NCBI RefSeq assembly: GCF_019049105.1
Contig: NZ_JAHQZR010000006.1
Coordinates: 62,001-126,000, forward strand
Source: Leucobacter chinensis
GTDB lineage: Bacteria > Actinomycetota > Actinomycetes > Actinomycetales > Microbacteriaceae
Length of the DNA: 64,000 bases
Direction: 5' to 3'
The position numbers and the translations under genes are program-made. How positions within the stretch are numbered: the first letter of the stretch is position 1; each line of letters starts with the position of its first letter. The notes under the pieces were generated by a model, which worked only from the letters and a program-made list of their open reading frames with translations, searched no databases and was not told the DNA's origin. Positions 10,239 through 19,667 of the stretch are shown in pieces.

Positions 10239-10287
10239 GTACCTGTTCTCTTGACCCCGCTTCTTCCGCCTCTGGGGTCGGGAAGGT
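10239..10287 (+). promoter_or_regulatory. CGTACCT leader hairpin before the coupling-protein gene
   Basis: GACCCC (10253-10258) pairs with GGGGTC (10274-10279). Outside it, ACCT (10241-10244) can pair with AGGT (10284-10287), which includes part of the GGAAGG ribosome-binding site of GTG 10296. The 5' part carries the shared CGTACCT motif. Confidence 0.5.
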
Positions 10288-10295
10288 GCTGTGTC

Positions 10296-12062
10296 GTGTC
10301 TGGACCTGTACAGGCGAAACCCGCCAACGATCTCTTCATCAACCTCGCACTCGGTGCGCTCGTCACTGCCGCCGCGTTCACCGGGCTCCTGCGTATCGCA
10401 GGCTCCGTAACTGCGTTCCTGACCGGCCTGCCGGAGCCAACCTGTGGGTTCACCTCCGGGCTCGCGGTGCTCGCGCACCCGACAGATCCGGGGGCGGCGC
10501 TCGGCGCTGAGGGGCTCAACCCCGTTCTCTATTGGATGGTCGTGTTCGTGTTCCTTGGCCTGTTGGGTGCGGCAGGGTTCTTCGTCGCGCGGGCGATCTA
10601 CCGGTCTCGGTCGAAGACGGATCCGCACCGTCTCGCGGGAACGGCAACTGCGGGTGAAGTCGCACAGGTCGCCTCCGCGAAAGCTCTCGTGAAGAAATCC
10701 GCCACACTGCGCCCGTCACTCACCGAGAAGCCCAGGCCAGAGGAGGTCGGGTATCTGCTCGGGACGGCGAAAGGCGGGCAGGTGTGGGCAACGGTCGAAG
10801 ACTCAATCCTTCTCATCGGCCCGCCCCGTTCCGGAAAGGGCCTACATGTGGTGATCAACGCGATCCTCGACGCACCAGGAGCCGTCATCACCACCAGCAC
10901 TCGTCCCGACAACCTCACCGCCACGATGAAGGCCAGGGAACGGAAAGGGCCAGTGGCAGTGTTCGACCCGCAGCAACTCGCCCCTGGCCTGCCCTCAGGG
11001 ATGCGGTGGTCTCCCGTGCGGGGCTGTCAGGACCCGCTGACGGCGATGATCCGCGCGAAAGGCCTCGCCACCGCGACCGGATTCGGCGGGGTCCAAGACG
11101 CGGGCTTCTGGGAAGGAAAAACCACCGCCGCAATCCAAGGCCTCCTCCACGCGGCAGCCCTCGACGGACGCGATGCGAAGACCCTCTATCAATGGGCGCT
11201 CAACCCCACCCTCGCAGCAGACGCAGTCCGGGTCCTCTCGTCGCATGCGGGGGCAGCGGAAGGGTGGGCAGACTCGCTGGATGCGATGGTGCAGGCCGAT
11301 CCTCGCACCCGCGACTCCATCTGGCAGGGAGTTTCCCTCGCGTTCTCCGCCCTCGCAGACCCCCGCGTTCTCGATGCCGTCAGCCCCGCACCGGGTGAGG
11401 AATTCGATCCCGAAAGTTTCCTCCTCGGCAATGGGACGCTCTATCTCCTTGCTACCGGCGCTGGGGCGGGCGCATCGTCTGCGCTGGTGGCAGCATTCAT
11501 CGAAGACCTCGTCGAGACCGCGAGGAAGATCGCCGCACGCTCACCAGGCGCACGCATGGACCCACCGTTGCTTCTGGCTTTGGATGAGATCGGAAACCTC
11601 GCCCCGCTCCCGTCACTGCCGACGTTGATGGCGGAAGGTGGCGGCACCGGCATCACGCCCCTTCCCGTGCTGCAGTCGCTCGCGCAGGCGCGGGAGAAGT
11701 GGGGCGAGAACCAAGCGAACGCGATCTGGGACGCCTCGATCGTGAAGATCATCCTCGGCGGAGCATCCAACAGTCGCGATCTCCAGGACCTCGCCACCCT
11801 CATCGGCGACCGCGACGAAACCACGGACTCCATCACCACCGACGCGTACGGTGCGCATTCCAGGCAGCGTTCAATCCGTCGAGTCCCGATCCTTCCACCC
11901 GACGTACTGCGGACCCTCCCGTTCGGGACCGGTGTCGTGATGCTCCGCACCGCACGCCCCATCATCACCAACCTCCGCCCATGGCCAGCACGCCCCGACG
12001 GGAAACAACTACGAGCCGATCGCAAGAGCGTCGAACAGGCATTGCAGGGCGGATCACGGTGA
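10296..12062 (+). CDS. TraG/TraD/VirD4-type conjugative coupling protein
   Basis: I took GTG 10296 as the start (GGAAGG nine bases upstream), giving 588 aa. An upstream in-frame TTG at 10251 is less likely. Two TM helices lie at about residues 12-35 and 70-95. Walker A is GPPRSGKGLH at about residue 173 and Walker B is LLLALDEIGNLAPLP at about residue 427. This is the classic layout of a T4SS coupling ATPase that delivers the relaxase-DNA complex to the channel. The gene converges on the cargo operon to its right. Confidence 0.92.
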   Translation: MSGPVQAKPANDLFINLALGALVTAAAFTGLLRIAGSVTAFLTGLPEPTCGFTSGLAVLAHPTDPGAALGAEGLNPVLYWMVVFVFLGLLGAAGFFVARAIYRSRSKTDPHRLAGTATAGEVAQVASAKALVKKSATLRPSLTEKPRPEEVGYLLGTAKGGQVWATVEDSILLIGPPRSGKGLHVVINAILDAPGAVITTSTRPDNLTATMKARERKGPVAVFDPQQLAPGLPSGMRWSPVRGCQDPLTAMIRAKGLATATGFGGVQDAGFWEGKTTAAIQGLLHAAALDGRDAKTLYQWALNPTLAADAVRVLSSHAGAAEGWADSLDAMVQADPRTRDSIWQGVSLAFSALADPRVLDAVSPAPGEEFDPESFLLGNGTLYLLATGAGAGASSALVAAFIEDLVETARKIAARSPGARMDPPLLLALDEIGNLAPLPSLPTLMAEGGGTGITPLPVLQSLAQAREKWGENQANAIWDASIVKIILGGASNSRDLQDLATLIGDRDETTDSITTDAYGAHSRQRSIRRVPILPPDVLRTLPFGTGVVMLRTARPIITNLRPWPARPDGKQLRADRKSVEQALQGGSR

Positions 12063-12084: not shown

Positions 12085-12708
12085 TTACTGCAGTAGCGCT
12101 GAGTTCAGTTCGACGAGGGTGCGGTTGTGGAAATAATCGTCTTCTCGCAGCACGGTGATGCCTCCTGGCTCCGCGCGCAACCGCATGTGCTGGAGAGCGT
12201 CGATGGGCAGGCGCAAGAACGCGGCTGCGACAAAGGTGAGTGCTCCACCGTGAGTGGAGATGACCTGGTGTTCGCACGGCTTGTCGAGGATCTCGTCCAT
12301 GGCTTCGTAGATGCGGGTTGCGAACCCGTGCATGGTTTCTGCTCCTGCAATCCCCTCATTGTGGCAGAGCCGTTCACCGGTACGAGGTGGCGTGCGGAAG
12401 CGTACATTGAGCCATGACTGCGGTTTCCCTTCCGCGATTCCGTAAGATTTCTCCCGCAGCCGCGCATCGACCACCGCTGGGATGCCCAGATAGTTGGTGA
12501 TGGCCTGGGCGGTCTGCGCGGTGCGCCGCAGGTCTGATGAATACAACTCGACAGTTTCCCCGGGTGGGATTCGTGCTGCGAGTGCGGCACCGATCCGGTC
12601 AGCCGCTTGTAGCCCTTGGTCGGTGAGCTCGGAGTGGTACCAGCCTCCGACTAAACCGTTGACGTGGTGTGTGGCTTCGGGGTGGGTGACCACATACAGC
12701 GTCCTCAT
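12085..12708 (-). CDS. Histidine-phosphatase-like protein with altered RHG motif
   Basis: The protein has 207 aa from ATG 12708, last gene of a four-gene operon (ATGA overlap with the gene upstream). The fold features of the phosphoglycerate mutase-like superfamily are present: ELTDQGLQAADRIGAALA, YSSDLRRTAQTAQAI, a REKSYGIAEGK loop and a late VISTHGGALTF containing the second catalytic His. The N-terminal motif reads THPEATHH where RHG is expected, so the usual first arginine is a threonine while the histidine is kept. Substrate is unknown. Confidence 0.85.
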   Translation of the reverse strand: MRTLYVVTHPEATHHVNGLVGGWYHSELTDQGLQAADRIGAALAARIPPGETVELYSSDLRRTAQTAQAITNYLGIPAVVDARLREKSYGIAEGKPQSWLNVRFRTPPRTGERLCHNEGIAGAETMHGFATRIYEAMDEILDKPCEHQVISTHGGALTFVAAAFLRLPIDALQHMRLRAEPGGITVLREDDYFHNRTLVELNSALLQ

Positions 12709-13691
12709 GCGTCTGTTTCCTGACGTAGATCTCCGGATGGCAGGGAACTGAGATGTTCGTGCGTGAGTAGCCACCCGTGCTCGGTTCGCATGAAGACGTT
12801 CGTGGCACGCCCGGCACCGGAGCGCATCTCGCCTTCTATGGCGCCTTTCCAGTGGTAGGTATAGGTCGCCACAGCTGCTTGATCGGCGTCTGTAACCCAT
12901 TGGATTTTTTCGGCCCAATAGTGCTCATCGGGGATCATCGCCCAGGTGCGTTCAAAGTAGTCGCGCACCTGTGTGAGGCCGATGCAGGTTGCGTCACCGA
13001 AGAAATAGACGGCATCAGAGGAGAGAAGTTTCTCGACCTGGTCAAAGTCGTGCGTATTCGTAGCCGCCAGATACGCACTCAGAGCTTCGGCAGCCGTTGT
13101 TTCTGGTGAACACCCCTTGCCTGGCGCATGAGGGAAGTTCGCCCTCATCTTCCACACCGGAGGTCCTCCGCCCACGCCGGTATGGGTGATGGTTTGAAAT
13201 CCGTGCCGCTCATACAGGCGGACGTTGCGAGGATCAGAGGTGTCCAGCTCCACTGATGCACCGCCTCGCCGGGCCGCTTCAGCCAGCGCGAACGACAACA
13301 GGGCAGACGCGATCCCGCTGCCTTGGGAGTTGGGAAGCACGCCAAGAGTTTCGAGCCGCCATGCTCCTGTCGGTGGATCAGTAGGTAAGTCAGCGTGGTC
13401 GAGTCTGTCGATCCGGTCGCCGTGCAAGCGCACGATCTCGTCGATCATCCCTGGGTCGGGTTCGGGAGCATCGGGCGGCAGGAGCGCGATCACGCCCTCG
13501 CCGTTGCCCACCACGGCGACGATCCCATGCATGTGCGCATACTCGAGATACAGCAACTGTAGATCGTGTAGCCGCTGATGATAGTTCTCTTCAGGAATCA
13601 CGTGGCGCGTCCACGGATAATGTTCAAACGCAGCAGCAAGACTGATTGCGCTCGTGGGGAGGTCGTCGGCGCTAGCTAAGCGGGGTGTCAT
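12705..13691 (-). CDS. GNAT acetyltransferase fused to a SnoaL/NTF2-like domain
   Basis: The protein has 328 aa from ATG 13691, with AGGAG seven bases upstream. Residues about 1-200 form a GNAT domain (GVLPNSQGSGIASALLSFAL is the acetyl-CoA motif; VRLYERHGFQ follows). Residues about 215-328 resemble a SnoaL/DUF4440 NTF2-like domain (ALSAYLAATNTHDFDQVEKL, then VFMRTEHGWLLTHEHLS). Such pairs occur in small-molecule modification or resistance proteins. The gene overlaps its neighbours on both sides, so it belongs to the operon starting at 14477. Confidence 0.82.
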   Translation of the reverse strand: MTPRLASADDLPTSAISLAAAFEHYPWTRHVIPEENYHQRLHDLQLLYLEYAHMHGIVAVVGNGEGVIALLPPDAPEPDPGMIDEIVRLHGDRIDRLDHADLPTDPPTGAWRLETLGVLPNSQGSGIASALLSFALAEAARRGGASVELDTSDPRNVRLYERHGFQTITHTGVGGGPPVWKMRANFPHAPGKGCSPETTAAEALSAYLAATNTHDFDQVEKLLSSDAVYFFGDATCIGLTQVRDYFERTWAMIPDEHYWAEKIQWVTDADQAAVATYTYHWKGAIEGEMRSGAGRATNVFMRTEHGWLLTHEHLSSLPSGDLRQETDA

Positions 13692-14055
13692 TGGGAATCT
13701 CCTGGTTGTCCAGAGGCGCGGCTTGTCCGCCGTTGCCTTTATTGCCTGAAGAGCCGGGGATACCTGAGCCGACAATGGCCTGCAGCGTGGCAAGGTGCCG
13801 TTCGAACGCGGTACGCCCGGTCGTGGTGATGCCAACCCAGGTGCGCGTGCGTCTGCCCACGGTTTCTTTACGCACGGTCACCAGGTCAGCATCTGCGAGC
13901 ACGGTGATGGCTTGCGAGAGTGTGGAGTCACTCACCTCCAGGAGGTTTGCGAGGAATCTGAAATCCACATCTTCCAGGTTCCGCAGCGCGGCCAGTAACG
14001 AGAACCGCACGGGGGAGTGGATGAGGGTGTCGAGGTCTTTGCGGGGATGACTCAT
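13672..14055 (-). CDS. Winged-helix regulator (HTH_34-like, MarR-related)
   Basis: The protein has 127 aa from ATG 14055, which overlaps the stop of the membrane-protein gene (ATGA). The core LIHSPVRFSLLAALRNLEDV, then LANLLEVSDSTLSQAITVLA (recognition helix) and a basic wing (VRKETVGRRTRTWV), matches PF13601-type winged helices. A Gly/Asn-rich tail ends the protein. It probably represses its own operon: a palindromic site lies at the promoter (14484-14502). Confidence 0.85.
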   Translation of the reverse strand: MSHPRKDLDTLIHSPVRFSLLAALRNLEDVDFRFLANLLEVSDSTLSQAITVLADADLVTVRKETVGRRTRTWVGITTTGRTAFERHLATLQAIVGSGIPGSSGNKGNGGQAAPLDNQEIPNDTPLS

Positions 14056-14477
14056 CGGCGAGAGCTCGCAAACAGGCATGCCAAGATCGGGGTGATCGAC
14101 ACGACTCCGGCGAGCACCCACCACCACGGCGAAGACAGACCAAACAATTGCAGCGCGGGGTCAAGCATGAGGGTGTAAAGCGCGAACCAAGTCGCCACCG
14201 CGATGCCCATGTTCCGCAGGCCGTGGCGCGGGATCGACTCGCGATAGCGGAACGCGATCATCCAGATACAGAGCGTGACGAGCAGGAACGGTGCGAACGC
14301 CTTCCAATAGTTCACCTTGACAATGTCAAGCGAAAGCGTAAAGGCCAGCGCATACGCGGCCTGCATGACTACGAAGACACGGAACCATCGCGTGGCTCTC
14401 CGCGCATCCTGCGCAGCCTTCTCACCCACGGCGACCAGACGAGTTGCATCTTCAACAGAGAACTTGTTTTCACTCAT
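14052..14477 (-). CDS. Small membrane protein, first gene of cargo operon
   Basis: The protein has 141 aa from ATG 14477. A hydrophilic N-terminus (about 30 residues) is followed by four hydrophobic helices (VFVVMQAAYALAFTL; FAPFLLVTLCIWMIAF; MGIAVATWFALYTLML; WWWVLAGVVSITPILACLFA). I recognise no named family. Pairing of such a membrane protein with an HTH_34-type regulator is seen in other actinobacteria and suggests a membrane stress or sensing role. The function is not known. Confidence 0.75.
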   Translation of the reverse strand: MSENKFSVEDATRLVAVGEKAAQDARRATRWFRVFVVMQAAYALAFTLSLDIVKVNYWKAFAPFLLVTLCIWMIAFRYRESIPRHGLRNMGIAVATWFALYTLMLDPALQLFGLSSPWWWVLAGVVSITPILACLFASSRR

Positions 14478-14593: not shown

Positions 14594-15085
14594 ATGAGCA
14601 TCCGCACCAAACAGTCCCTCGCAGGGTTCGTCGCCACCGATCCGGAGCTGACGTTCACCAGCAGCGGCGACGCGCGCGTCTACATGCGCGTCGGGCAGCC
14701 TCAGGCCCGGTTCGAACAGGACGGCACGTTCACCCAGCTCGACCCGGAGTTCACCGACCTGGTGATGTTCCGCAAGTCCGCTGAGCTCGCACACGAGCAG
14801 TTCCGCAAGGGCGACAACTTCATCGCCGAAGGCGAAACCCGCACCTACACCGGCGACGACGGCATGGAGCGGGAGCAGTTCGTCGCTTCCCGGATCGGGC
14901 ACGACAACAACATCACCCGCTACACCGTCGACCGCGGAGCACCCGAACGCGAGGCACCGCAGCACGAAGCCCCTGGCCGGGAACAGATGCAGCAGGTGCT
15001 CGCGCAGCGTGAAGCAGACCTGGACCCTGAACCACCCGCCGCATCCGCCACGGGCTCGACGGAGCGCGAGGCCGTTGCCCGCTAA
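14594..15085 (+). CDS. ssb: Single-stranded DNA-binding protein of the element
   Basis: The protein has 163 aa from ATG 14594. The N-terminal OB-fold region (LAGFVATDPELTFTSSGDAR, VYMRVGQPQ, FRKSAELAHEQFRKGDNFIA, GETRTYTGDDG) matches SSB. The C-terminal part is a short polar tail ending in TEREAVAR and lacks the acidic DDDIPF-type tip that chromosomal SSBs use to recruit partners. It would protect transferred single strands in donor or recipient. Confidence 0.85.
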   Translation: MSIRTKQSLAGFVATDPELTFTSSGDARVYMRVGQPQARFEQDGTFTQLDPEFTDLVMFRKSAELAHEQFRKGDNFIAEGETRTYTGDDGMEREQFVASRIGHDNNITRYTVDRGAPEREAPQHEAPGREQMQQVLAQREADLDPEPPAASATGSTEREAVAR

Positions 15086-15862: not shown

Positions 15863-16082
15863 GCAGCCCGCGAAGCGGAAACCACCAGCTTCGGAACGGT
15901 CCTTCGGAATCCAGGCGGTGCATCGCGACCGCCCGAACATGACTGCACTGACGGAGCTATTCGTGCGGTTCACCCTGGCAGAAGCACACGCCCGCCGGGA
16001 TACGCAGCCCATTCCTATGCGGGTACGTCCGGAGGTGCTGAAGCAGGATGCTGACTGGGAACGCACTGGCGAAGGAAGGTAA
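15837..16082 (+). CDS. Small hypothetical protein between the DUF4913 and recombinase genes
   Basis: The protein has 81 aa from ATG 15837 (AGGTGA about seven bases upstream); ATG 15855 is an alternative. It overlaps the end of the DUF4913 gene by 26 bases. It is basic and polar with a MTALTELFVRFTLAEAHARR helix in the middle. It has no recognised domain. Overlap and codon pattern support a real gene translationally linked to its upstream neighbour. Confidence 0.6.
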   Translation: MSSVAVMGEQPAKRKPPASERSFGIQAVHRDRPNMTALTELFVRFTLAEAHARRDTQPIPMRVRPEVLKQDADWERTGEGR

Positions 16083-16109
16083 CATCGCAACCCGCCCAGA
16101 ATGCCTGGT

Positions 16110-16140
16110 GGCGGGGAGAAAGGAATCAGGGATCCCCGCC
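16110..16140 (+). promoter_or_regulatory. Hairpin immediately before the recombinase start, ribosome-binding site in the loop
   Basis: GGCGGGGA (16110-16117) and TCCCCGCC (16133-16140) form a perfect 8-bp inverted repeat. The 15-base loop carries AAAGGAATCAGGGA, the only Shine-Dalgarno-like sequence. The 3' arm ends at the base before ATG 16141. This geometry could limit or time recombinase synthesis. Confidence 0.5.
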
Positions 16141-17913
16141 ATGACCTATGTAACAGACACATTCACCCCTGTATCGAGTCCGGTCGCCGAGAGCATGCTT
16201 GCTCCGGCAGTCACGTATCTGCGGGTCTCCACCAAAGAGCAGGCCACCAAGGGCGGCCGCGACGAAGGCTTCTCGATCCCCGCGCAACGAGCAGCAAACC
16301 ACTCCAAGGCCGAATCGTTAGGCGCTTCGATCATCAAAGAGTTCGTTGACGCAGGCGAGTCCGCGAAAAAAGCAGACCGGCCAGCGCTGCGGGAGATGAT
16401 CGCCTACGTCAAACGACACAAAGTCGCTTACTGCATCGTCCACAAGGTTGACCGGCTCGCCCGCAACCGCGCCGACGACGTCGAGATTCACCTCGCCCTG
16501 CGCGAAGCAGGCGTCATACTTGTCTCCGCGACAGAGAACATCGACGAAACCCCATCCGGGATGCTGCTTCACGGCATCATGTCCTCGATCGCGGAGTTCT
16601 ACTCCGTCAACCTCGCCAACGAGGTGATGAAGGGCCTCGTGCAGAAGGCATCCACCGGCGGCACCCCGATGCGCGCCCCGATCGGCTACCTCAACACCCT
16701 GCACCGCGACGAACTCGGCCGCGAAGTGCGTGGCATCAAACAAGACCCCGACCGGGCGCGCCTGGTGAAGTGGGCGTTCACCGCCTACGCATCGGGAAAC
16801 TACAGCCTCGCCAAGCTTCGCATCGAACTCACGAACAAGGGCCTGCGCTCTGTGCCAACCCCGAAACGCCCTGCGAGACCTTTGGGGCTTTCGAGCGTGC
16901 ATCGAATGCTGCAAAACCCGTACTACAAGGGAGATGTCGTCTACCGGGGTGTCCGATATGACGGGGCACACGAACGGCTCGTTGAGCCAGAAGTCTGGTA
17001 TCAAGTGCAGTCCGTTCTGCGCTCCCACGCCCAGTCCGGGGTCCGCACGCAAAAGCATGACCACTACCTGAAGGGCACCTTGTTCTGTGGAAGGTGTCGT
17101 CAGCGGATGACGATCATCCACGCCAAGAACCGGCACGGCAACATCTACCCGTATTTCATCTGTCTGGGCCGCAACAACAAGCGCACGACCTGTGACATGC
17201 CGTATGCGCCGATGGACCGGGTTGAGAAGCTCGTCTCTGACTACTACCAGCGCATCACCCTCACGCCAGCGATGACCGACGCATTGCGGGGCATGCTGAT
17301 GCACGAGTTCGACCAACTGACCGCGGGCACTAACCAGTCCGTCCGAGACCTCACTGATCGGCGCAAGCAGATCCTTGCTGAGCAGGACAAGCTCCTGGAA
17401 GCACACCTGGCCGAGGCGCTCACGCTGGACCAGTTGAAGAAGTTCCAGACCAGGCTGCGAGCAGAACTTGACGGGATCGAGGCTCAGATCGCTGAGCACC
17501 ACAACGACTACCAGGGAGCCCGAGACCTCATCGACGGAGCCCTTGATCTCGCACGAGATTTCGCCGCTGTGTACGAGCGCTGCGACGACCAGAACAAGCG
17601 CCTCGCGAACCAGACCTTCTTTACCCGCATCTACCTGAATGAAGACGACACCCTCAGTGTGGACACCGCCGCACCGTTTGAGACCATCCTCGACGAGACC
17701 ACGAAGCAGCAGGCCATCACCTGGGCCGACCAGCTCGCCGCCGCCAATAAGAAGAGCGATGTTGTAACCCAAGACCTGTTTCTTCAGGCCCGGGTTACAA
17801 CATCGCTCATTGCGTGCCCCCGGAGGGATTCGAACCCCCGACCTACGGTACCGGAAACCGGCGCTCTATCCCCTGAGCTACGGAGGCAAGTCGTTACAAC
17901 TTTTCAAGCTTAG
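16141..17913 (+). CDS. Large serine recombinase (site-specific integrase/excisionase)
   Basis: The protein has 590 aa from ATG 16141; the frame is open upstream to 16048 but without a plausible start signal. The resolvase domain begins VTYLRVSTKEQ, with Ser30 as catalytic nucleophile. A Recombinase domain is at about residues 170-290 (MRAPIGYLN, LRSVPTPKRP), a zinc ribbon at about 313-355 (FCGRCRQRM, then C..C), then a coiled coil. From about residue 535 the frame runs through a hairpin and from about residue 559 antisense through the tRNA-Arg gene, ending RDSNPRPTVPETGALSPEL and so on. Those last residues are likely an integration by-product, and the native C-terminus in the excised circle would differ. 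Confidence 0.9.
   Translation: MTYVTDTFTPVSSPVAESMLAPAVTYLRVSTKEQATKGGRDEGFSIPAQRAANHSKAESLGASIIKEFVDAGESAKKADRPALREMIAYVKRHKVAYCIVHKVDRLARNRADDVEIHLALREAGVILVSATENIDETPSGMLLHGIMSSIAEFYSVNLANEVMKGLVQKASTGGTPMRAPIGYLNTLHRDELGREVRGIKQDPDRARLVKWAFTAYASGNYSLAKLRIELTNKGLRSVPTPKRPARPLGLSSVHRMLQNPYYKGDVVYRGVRYDGAHERLVEPEVWYQVQSVLRSHAQSGVRTQKHDHYLKGTLFCGRCRQRMTIIHAKNRHGNIYPYFICLGRNNKRTTCDMPYAPMDRVEKLVSDYYQRITLTPAMTDALRGMLMHEFDQLTAGTNQSVRDLTDRRKQILAEQDKLLEAHLAEALTLDQLKKFQTRLRAELDGIEAQIAEHHNDYQGARDLIDGALDLARDFAAVYERCDDQNKRLANQTFFTRIYLNEDDTLSVDTAAPFETILDETTKQQAITWADQLAAANKKSDVVTQDLFLQARVTTSLIACPRRDSNPRPTVPETGALSPELRRQVVTTFQA
17754..17808 (-). terminator. 17-bp hairpin, probable terminator of tRNA-Arg, inside the recombinase frame
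   Basis: gagcgatgttgtaaccc (17754-17770) and gggttacaacatcgctc (17792-17808) form a perfect 17-bp inverted repeat with a 21-base loop that itself contains cctg/cagg. Read on the minus strand it begins seven bases after the tRNA-Arg 3' end and is followed by TTCTTATT, so it looks like an intrinsic terminator for the tRNA. On the plus strand it is translated as part of the recombinase. Confidence 0.65.
17815..17887 (-). tRNA. tRNA-Arg (anticodon CCG)
   Basis: A 73-base cloverleaf on the minus strand: acceptor GCCTCCG pairs with CGGGGGC (one G-U), discriminator A, anticodon loop TTCCGGT with anticodon CCG, T-loop GTTCGAATC. No CCA is encoded. The 3' end faces the conjugative element. The argS gene starts 119 bases away on the other strand, so the spacer carries two divergent promoters. 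Confidence 0.95.
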
Positions 17914-18005: not shown

Positions 18006-19667
18006 ATGACACCGAAAGATCTTCAAGCAGCACTTCTCACCATCGTGACCGATGTCATTGCCTCACGAGGCAGTGACATCCAGGTAACCGAGGCCGACGT
18101 GCAGCTCGAGCGACCGAAGAGCCGCGATCACGGTGACTGGGCCTCAAACGTGGCGATGAAGTTCGCGAAGCGTCTTGGCACGAATCCGCGTGAACTCGCC
18201 GAGGGTATCGCCGCAAAGCTCGCGGAGCTCGACGGTATTGCCAAGGCAGAGGTTGCCGGCCCCGGCTTTATCAATATGACGTTTGACGCGGCGAGCGCGG
18301 GCGCAACCGCCAAGCTTGTCGTCGAACAGGGCGAAGCGTACGGCCGCAGCAACGTGCTCGCTGGCCACAACATCAACATGGAGTTCGTCTCGGCGAACCC
18401 GACCGGTCCGCTGCACATGGGGCACACCCGCTGGGCGGCGCTCGGTGACTCGATTGCTCGGGTGCTCCGTGCCGCGGGTGCCGAGGTGACGAACGAGTAC
18501 TACATCAACGACGCCGGTGCCCAGATGGATAAGTTCGGCCGCTCGGTTCTCGCAGCAGCCCTCGGTGAGCCGGCCCCCGAAGACGCTTACCCGGGCGAAT
18601 ACATCACAAACCTCGGCAAGCGCATCATCGAGGTGCGCCCCGACCTCGGCGACCTGCCGCGTGACGAGGCACTCGCCGAAGCGAGCGAGATCGGCTACCA
18701 GCTGCAGCTCGCCGAGATCAAAGACTCACTCGAGCGGTTCAACGTGCACTTCGACGTGTTCTTCTCAGAGCGCACGATGCACGCGCCGGGCGAGAATGGT
18801 GCGCCGAGCGCGATCGAAAACGCGATGGAGCGCCTGCGTGAGCAGGGCCACGTCTACGAAGCAGACGACGCGACCTGGGTGCGCACGACGGCCTTCGGTG
18901 ATGACAAAGACCGCGTGTTTACCCGCGGCAACGGAATCTTCACGTACTTTGCCGCCGATGCTGCCTACTATCTGTCGAAGATGGATCGCGGTTTCGGCGA
19001 GAAGATTTACCTGCTCGGCGCCGATCACCACGGCTACATTGGTCGTCTCAAGGCGATCGCGGGTGCCGCTGGCGATAACCCCGAGACCGACATCACGGTG
19101 CTCATCGGTCAGCTTGTTAATCTCAACGGCGCACGCCTTTCGAAGCGCGCAGGTAACATTATTGAGCTCGACGACCTGCTCGAATGGCTTGGCTCTGACG
19201 CGCTGCGCTACTGGCTTGCGCGCTACCCAGCTGATTCGCCACTCGCGCTCGACGGTGAGCAGTTGCGCAGTCGCACGAACGACAACCCTGTCTTCTACGT
19301 GCAGTACGCGCATGCTCGTTCACAGGCCGTTGCCCGTAACGCGGCGGCAGCTGGCATCGATCGCAGCGCCTTCGCGCCAGAGATGCTCGTGCACGACACC
19401 GAGAACGACCTGCTCGGCAAGCTGCAGGAGTACCCGCGCATCGTGGCCTGGTCGGCCGAGTTGCGCGAACCGCACCGCATCGCACGCTACCTCGAAGAGC
19501 TTGCCGCGTCGTTTAACCGCTGGTATGACAGCTGCCGCGTGATCCCCCTCGCCGATGCTCCCGTTGAAGATCTGCATCGTACGCGCCTCTGGCTCAACGA
19601 CGCCACCGGTATCGTGCTGCGCAACGGTCTCGACCTGCTTGGCGTGAGCGCGCCAGAGCGCATGTGA
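18006..19667 (+). CDS. argS: Arginyl-tRNA synthetase
   Basis: The protein has 553 aa from ATG 18006, with the usual length and order for class Ia ArgRS. The N-terminal additional domain is followed by the HIGH-type motif (SANPTGPLHMGHTRWAALGD) at about residue 127. The Rossmann core has LLGADHHGYIGRLKAI and a KMSKS equivalent LSKRAGN. The C-terminal DALR anticodon-binding domain ends NDATGIVLRNGLDLLGV. It charges tRNA-Arg in the cytoplasm. The stop (TGATG) overlaps the next gene's ATG. Confidence 0.97.
   Translation: MTPKDLQAALLTIVTDVIASRGSDIQVTEADVQLERPKSRDHGDWASNVAMKFAKRLGTNPRELAEGIAAKLAELDGIAKAEVAGPGFINMTFDAASAGATAKLVVEQGEAYGRSNVLAGHNINMEFVSANPTGPLHMGHTRWAALGDSIARVLRAAGAEVTNEYYINDAGAQMDKFGRSVLAAALGEPAPEDAYPGEYITNLGKRIIEVRPDLGDLPRDEALAEASEIGYQLQLAEIKDSLERFNVHFDVFFSERTMHAPGENGAPSAIENAMERLREQGHVYEADDATWVRTTAFGDDKDRVFTRGNGIFTYFAADAAYYLSKMDRGFGEKIYLLGADHHGYIGRLKAIAGAAGDNPETDITVLIGQLVNLNGARLSKRAGNIIELDDLLEWLGSDALRYWLARYPADSPLALDGEQLRSRTNDNPVFYVQYAHARSQAVARNAAAAGIDRSAFAPEMLVHDTENDLLGKLQEYPRIVAWSAELREPHRIARYLEELAASFNRWYDSCRVIPLADAPVEDLHRTRLWLNDATGIVLRNGLDLLGVSAPERM

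Follow-up and report, generated by a model that had tools for sequence, protein, structure and literature searches.

The nearest bacterial precedent for the gene arrangement described below is dsiB of the Dehalococcoides ssrA islands, a serine recombinase gene that overlaps the att site at its 3' end and extends into the T-loop of the tmRNA; its authors speculated that the enzyme may have its full function only when circular or when a further island lies next to it (PMC3146451). In archaea, the suicidal tyrosine integrases of SSV1, pTN3 and pT26-2 carry attP inside the integrase gene, which is split by integration (PMC8371274, PMC5495485). Mycobacteriophage BPs places attP in its repressor gene; integration shortens the C-terminus, and the longer form is unstable through an ssrA-like tag (PMC4557955). 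Fusions of a recombination directionality factor (RDF) to the C-terminus of integrases of the phiC31/Bxb1 type have been engineered and favour excision (PMC5737554). Among elements that use tRNA genes, two reports describe actinobacterial AICEs with a serine recombinase in tRNA-Leu and phage phiRSM1 in tRNA-Ser (PMC3218068, PMC3816273), and serine-recombinase integration into tRNA genes is described there as rare (PMC3218068).

The window analyzed here, a 64,000-nucleotide stretch of Leucobacter chinensis, contains a large serine recombinase (LSR) gene that combines features of these systems. Compared by layout, it resembles dsiB in that the recombinase gene overlaps att at its 3' end and extends into the RNA gene that serves as target; unlike dsiB, whose target is ssrA and for which no conserved domain past att was shown, it has a selected, in-frame tail with a double helix-turn-helix (HTH), natural fusions with that tail, and tRNA targets in actinobacterial LSRs. 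As in the archaeal suicidal integrases, integration would split the recombinase gene at attP, whereas the enzyme here is a serine rather than a tyrosine recombinase and its catalytic part would stay whole instead of being separated. As in BPs, attP lies within a coding gene and the protein form is predicted to report the integration state, but here attP sits in the recombinase gene instead of a repressor gene, and a DNA-binding domain is what the longer form has in addition. Fold and domains are those of the phiC31/Bxb1 integrases, in which type a C-terminal fusion can alter reaction direction; unlike the engineered RDF fusions, the natural fusion occurs in the state that must integrate. Integration by a serine recombinase at a tRNA 3' end is shared with the AICEs and phiRSM1, and the accessible parts of those reports make no mention of a split recombinase gene or of T-arm recognition (PMC3218068, PMC3816273). 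Relative to the dsiB precedent, a split LSR with a selected tail appears to be new; earlier descriptions may exist beyond the open-access literature. We regard it as highly probable that attP lies inside the LSR gene and that the gene has the two protein forms predicted from the element ends.

Table 1. Positions in the window of the recombinase gene, its tRNA target, the attachment-site features and further genes of the element.
Feature	Position	Strand	Remarks
LSR ORF, integrated form	16048..17913	+	621 aa; first ATG at 16048, putative start
tRNA-Arg(CCG), integration target, intact	17814..17887	-	tRNA call and empty site L006 in G001
30 host-encoded codons (antisense tRNA-Arg and upstream flank)	17821..17910	+	Replace the 161-aa tail when integrated
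Recombination core TGCGTGCCCC, right junction	17811..17820	+	Left junction vs right junction vs G001 empty site
P-arm half-site motif	17794..17799	+	GTTACA here; family consensus GTTCGA at -20..-15 from core GT
Putative attB half-site TCGAAC of the tRNA T-arm	17830..17835	+	+16..+21 from core GT
Inverted repeat, left arm, element-borne	17754..17770	+	Perfect 17-bp stem; also in G001 element beside tRNA-Leu
Inverted repeat, right arm	17792..17808	+	Perfect 17-bp stem; overlaps attP P-arm half-site
TraG/VirD4-type coupling protein of the element	10251..12062	+	Pfam
SSB-like protein of the element	14594..15085	+	Pfam

The ORF at the right end of the element (Table 1) contains Resolvase (PF00239, 54-205), Recombinase (PF07508, 234-325) and zinc-ribbon (PF13408, 341-400) domains above Pfam cutoffs, and is on these domains assigned to the LSRs. 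Its frame runs antisense through tRNA-Arg(CCG) to a stop codon at 17911-17913, with no earlier stop in frame. A sequence-only reading had described this open frame and placed the last ~55 residues over a hairpin and then the tRNA gene; this description is accurate, and ~52 codons lie between 17754 and the stop. Sequencing error was considered as the source of the read-through and ruled out, because homologues read through likewise.

Comparison of the window's own genome (G000) with a same-genus genome (G001) defines the element ends. First, G001 has a tRNA-Arg/argS locus without the element (L006), whose identity with the window begins at 17811. The left flank of this empty site, a terminator-like hairpin, is present in G000 at C20:37952-38019, where the left junction passes from host flank through TGCGTGCCCC into element DNA; this second copy of the core (G000:C20:38020-38029) lies outside the window. 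The element so delimited is 41.8 kb long, with its left end upstream, beyond the window. On the other side of the occupied tRNA, the gene at 18006..19667 (+), which we take from its sequence to be argS, is collinear with the empty site. Second, a related element of G001 occupies tRNA-Leu(CAG), with its tail (described below) 108 kb away; this site is empty in G000, and joining the G001 flanks at GTGC reproduces it. The core is thereby narrowed to 10 bp in G000 and 4 bp (GTGC) in G001, and the two reciprocal empty sites fix the element architecture at the sequence level. A TrwC relaxase, the coupling protein and the defined att ends mark the element as a predicted integrative conjugative element. 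Just inside its left end and outside the window (L043, 1097-5296, minus strand), a SIR2_2 protein adjoins a large AAA_13 ATPase, possibly an element-carried defence pair. Opposite-strand cargo at 12085-14477 of the window (minus strand) comprises a histidine phosphatase, a GNAT-SnoaL fusion ORF, a MarR-like winged-helix regulator and an uncharacterized 141-aa ORF.

When the right and left ends are joined virtually at the core, the recombinase frame stays open and the predicted circle encodes a protein of 752 aa. Residues 1-591 are common to both forms; the predicted circle adds 161 residues and the integrated copy 30 host-encoded ones. The suggestion that integrated and circular elements encode different C-termini, and hence two protein forms, is supported by the joined ends (752 vs 621 aa), and the circle does not encode the same tail as the integrated copy. 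Circularization and translation of both forms are inferred from sequence. Within the 161 residues of the tail, Pfam recognizes two HTH units (HTH_23/HTH_38/HTH_7-like), which an AlphaFold model renders as two confident three-helix units. The nearest Foldseek match of the tail model is 2LVS, a CRISPR-repeat-binding protein (E 4e-4), followed at weaker E-values by Tc3 transposase, Mos1 and Pax domains; these neighbours are bipartite DNA-binding proteins. In the model of a natural fusion, L025, the LSR fold extends to ~507, the junction falls at 528, and the HTHs occupy 583-619 and 631-667; this model matches serine integrase structures such as 9dxd, 9rah and 4kis. Since all known LSR domains precede the core in the models, the split is not expected to inactivate the enzyme, and the integrated 621-aa form is predicted to be a catalytically complete, tail-less LSR.

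A search for the tail found it in 24 of the 37 genomes of the family and 17 of 34 in the wider class. In 28 of 33 cases, the tail nearest to the recombinase on its contig shares its strand and sits at the other end of the element (binomial p = 8e-13 against 1/4); the remaining five pairs break this geometry, some of them probably owing to neighbouring elements. Because a longest-exact-match search is too noisy for cores of 4-10 bp, cores were located by a codon-phased comparison and a frame-blind scan. In the former, recombinase and tail share phase at the core in 14 elements, which fall into two phase classes, with most boundaries read from core similarity and the crossover inferred in most elements; further elements have matching GTG phases. 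In the latter, restricted to cores with runs of at least 6 bases, the best core match is in frame in 11 of 13 elements (p = 2e-4). One exception is G028, whose halves are on different contigs and whose apparent core joins out of frame. The tails are, by their dN/dS, under purifying selection: four of five pairs give 0.20-0.26 and the G656 pair 0.45, compared with 0.06 for one recombinase body pair. These data bear on the trivial explanation that the read-through arises by chance from the open frames of GC-rich DNA, with attP merely overlapping the 3' end of the gene and nothing past the core of importance. A similar explanation was proposed for dsiB (PMC3146451), and the antisense tRNA residues are indeed conserved neither in length nor in origin; however, a conserved double HTH in the same frame and under purifying selection on the other side of the core, found at the expected element end in most pairs, makes an accident very improbable. 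Two further tails, L190 and L202 (G656:C6:143734-148469), lie 4.4 kb apart on the same strand and are perhaps a small second element or a remnant.

Unsplit genes also occur naturally. Seven ORFs contain a complete recombinase and both HTH units (L025, L311, L312, L314, L316, L320 and L322); an eighth fused ORF, L101, is broken in its N-terminal part. Not counted as complete fusions are L274, which was flagged and shows an odd match pattern, and L220 and L267, with broken or partial tails. The contig of L025 shows no terminal overlap of the kind that would mark a circular plasmid. In Sediminivirga luteola (G683:C7), fused L311 and L312 are followed by L313, which runs into tRNA-Ala, at a spacing of 46-49 kb on one contig; in Gulosibacter chungangensis (G682:C16), fused L314 is followed 42 kb on by L315, which runs into tRNA-Lys. 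From their layout, both look like tandem arrays at one tRNA in which each inner recombinase gets its missing tail from the element that follows. The inner recombinases are full-length, some with a tail from another sub-family, which suggests combinatorial chimeras; that chimeric fusions remain in frame indicates that the phase at the core is conserved.

A different reading would make the left-end ORF an independent HTH gene, such as a regulator or a directionality factor, that is translated in the integrated state, its fusion in the circle being incidental. The ORF is open and conserved, and the G000 tail has an ATG three codons in. However, the tails share no consistent internal start with a ribosome-binding site, and an ATG is missing altogether from several of them, which makes it unlikely that the integrated element translates the tail separately; in addition, crossing the core leaves the frame intact in both phase classes, and the natural fusions are uninterrupted. 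We consider an independent gene improbable and retain the split LSR as the preferred reading.

This split layout is, on the evidence of sequence comparisons, a property of the family. Homologues in Microbacteriaceae adjoin many different tRNAs and read into them. In the class, 35 of 395 genomes have close relatives; every alignment ends at or before the junction region, and most of the ORFs continue antisense into the T-arm. Of 80 loci in a scan of named actinobacterial genomes, 64 have an ORF that enters a tRNA (Ala, Val, His, Lys, Arg, Leu or Met), 6 were marked as tail fusions, 5 are truncated at a contig end and 5 are classed as other, some of the latter still closing with a typical antisense T-arm peptide. 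The homologues do not end before the hairpin, as they would on the counter-scenario raised by the sequence-only reading; they run into whichever tRNA they occupy. The host-encoded tails are not homologous to one another, their lengths range from 0 to several hundred residues, and most tRNA-His elements have a stop directly after the core. The emphasis of the earlier reading lay on a gain of tRNA-encoded residues, and an antisense tRNA tail does exist; the informative event, in contrast, is the loss of the conserved double-HTH tail. That the antisense tail is itself functional and defines an excision-specific isoform is the least probable of the alternatives considered: it is present in most integrated copies, but its sequence is set by the tRNA and flank, and neither its length nor, in most tRNA-His elements, its presence is maintained. 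Outside the class, many LSRs also read into tRNAs and the tail is detected in only 6 of 20 genomes. Loci L326-L342, also outside the class, are shorter LSRs that run antisense into tRNAs, most of them with no double-HTH tail detected; the trait of reading into a tRNA may be older than the tail. Searches of plasmid and phage collections returned distant LSRs only.

Alignment of 50-odd right junctions on the core reveals a P-arm motif, GGTTcgAatA, with GTTCGA at -20..-15, and the left ends of the tails carry the inverse motif at +21..+26 (P'). In LSR attachment sites, the outer motif of attP typically lies ~5 bp further out than that of attB. The attP of this family likewise has inverted half-sites whose outer motif is 5 bp further out than the T-arm motif (+21..+26 vs +16..+21). 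From this spacing we infer that the enzyme recognizes the tRNA T-arm as an attB half-site, and because the predicted recognition is of the T-arm, many tRNAs can serve as targets.

These observations can be assembled into a putative cycle. On the circle, the gene would encode the full-length enzyme, a complete LSR extended by a double-HTH tail for bipartite DNA binding. When attP recombines with the 3' end of a tRNA gene, with the T-arm as one half-site and the crossover at the end of the tRNA, the codons for the tail would come to lie at the opposite end of the element, leaving an integrated gene for a catalytically complete, tail-less LSR whose last residues, read antisense from the tRNA, carry no meaning. 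The full-length gene would be restored by excision or by a second element in tandem. The layout suggests that switching between free and inserted states is built in. It is possible, at somewhat less than even confidence, that the tail gives the enzyme made from the circle a hold on DNA close to attP and so promotes integration, and that losing the tail contributes to locking the element in place until excision factors come into play. The main alternative to such an integration-aid role is autoregulation: with the same architecture, the full-length enzyme would repress or activate its own promoter in the circle through the tail, with no direct effect on recombination. The bipartite DNA-binding architecture of the double HTH is compatible with this, and we regard it as possible though rather doubtful. 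A role of the tail as an RDF is weakly disfavoured, because an engineered integrase-RDF fusion favours attL x attR (PMC5737554), which is the wrong state.

More speculatively, and with less than even probability, integration would itself be the directionality switch: the tailed LSR of the circle would integrate, the tail-less LSR would act differently at attL x attR, and tandem insertion would re-arm an array with full-length, in part chimeric, enzymes. The family would then be a bacterial serine-recombinase counterpart of the self-splitting integrases, with the universal tRNA T-arm as a portable attB half-site. Normally a separate factor is credited with the directionality of serine integrases; in this family, a different enzyme is predicted for each state from the layout of the gene alone. 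The split LSR also contradicts a published statement that recombinases which disrupt their own gene are confined to archaea, and a T-arm half-site would explain how one LSR family uses many tRNA genes. For annotation, the integrated ORF is not the full gene. Recombinases mined from integrated copies for genome engineering would likewise carry a host-derived tail and lack ~130-165 residues.

The P arm of the window element also contains a long inverted repeat. The 17-bp perfect stem described by the sequence-only reading is real (loop 21 nt), and shuffles of the same stretch reach at most 8 bp. Its assignment as the terminator of the host tRNA-Arg did not survive: the G001 element carries the same hairpin beside tRNA-Leu, and the native terminator-like hairpin is at the other element end. 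By sequence comparison, the hairpin belongs to the element and not to the host tRNA, for which it is a possible replacement terminator. In 5 of 9 members of the window element's clade, the P arm has a 9-17 bp inverted repeat of varying sequence. The P arms of L013, L014 and L078 have long inverted repeats (12-17 bp) in the position that corresponds to 17754-17808 of the window; all lie within the coding frame, differ in sequence from one another, and are candidates for an extra binding site or for such a terminator.
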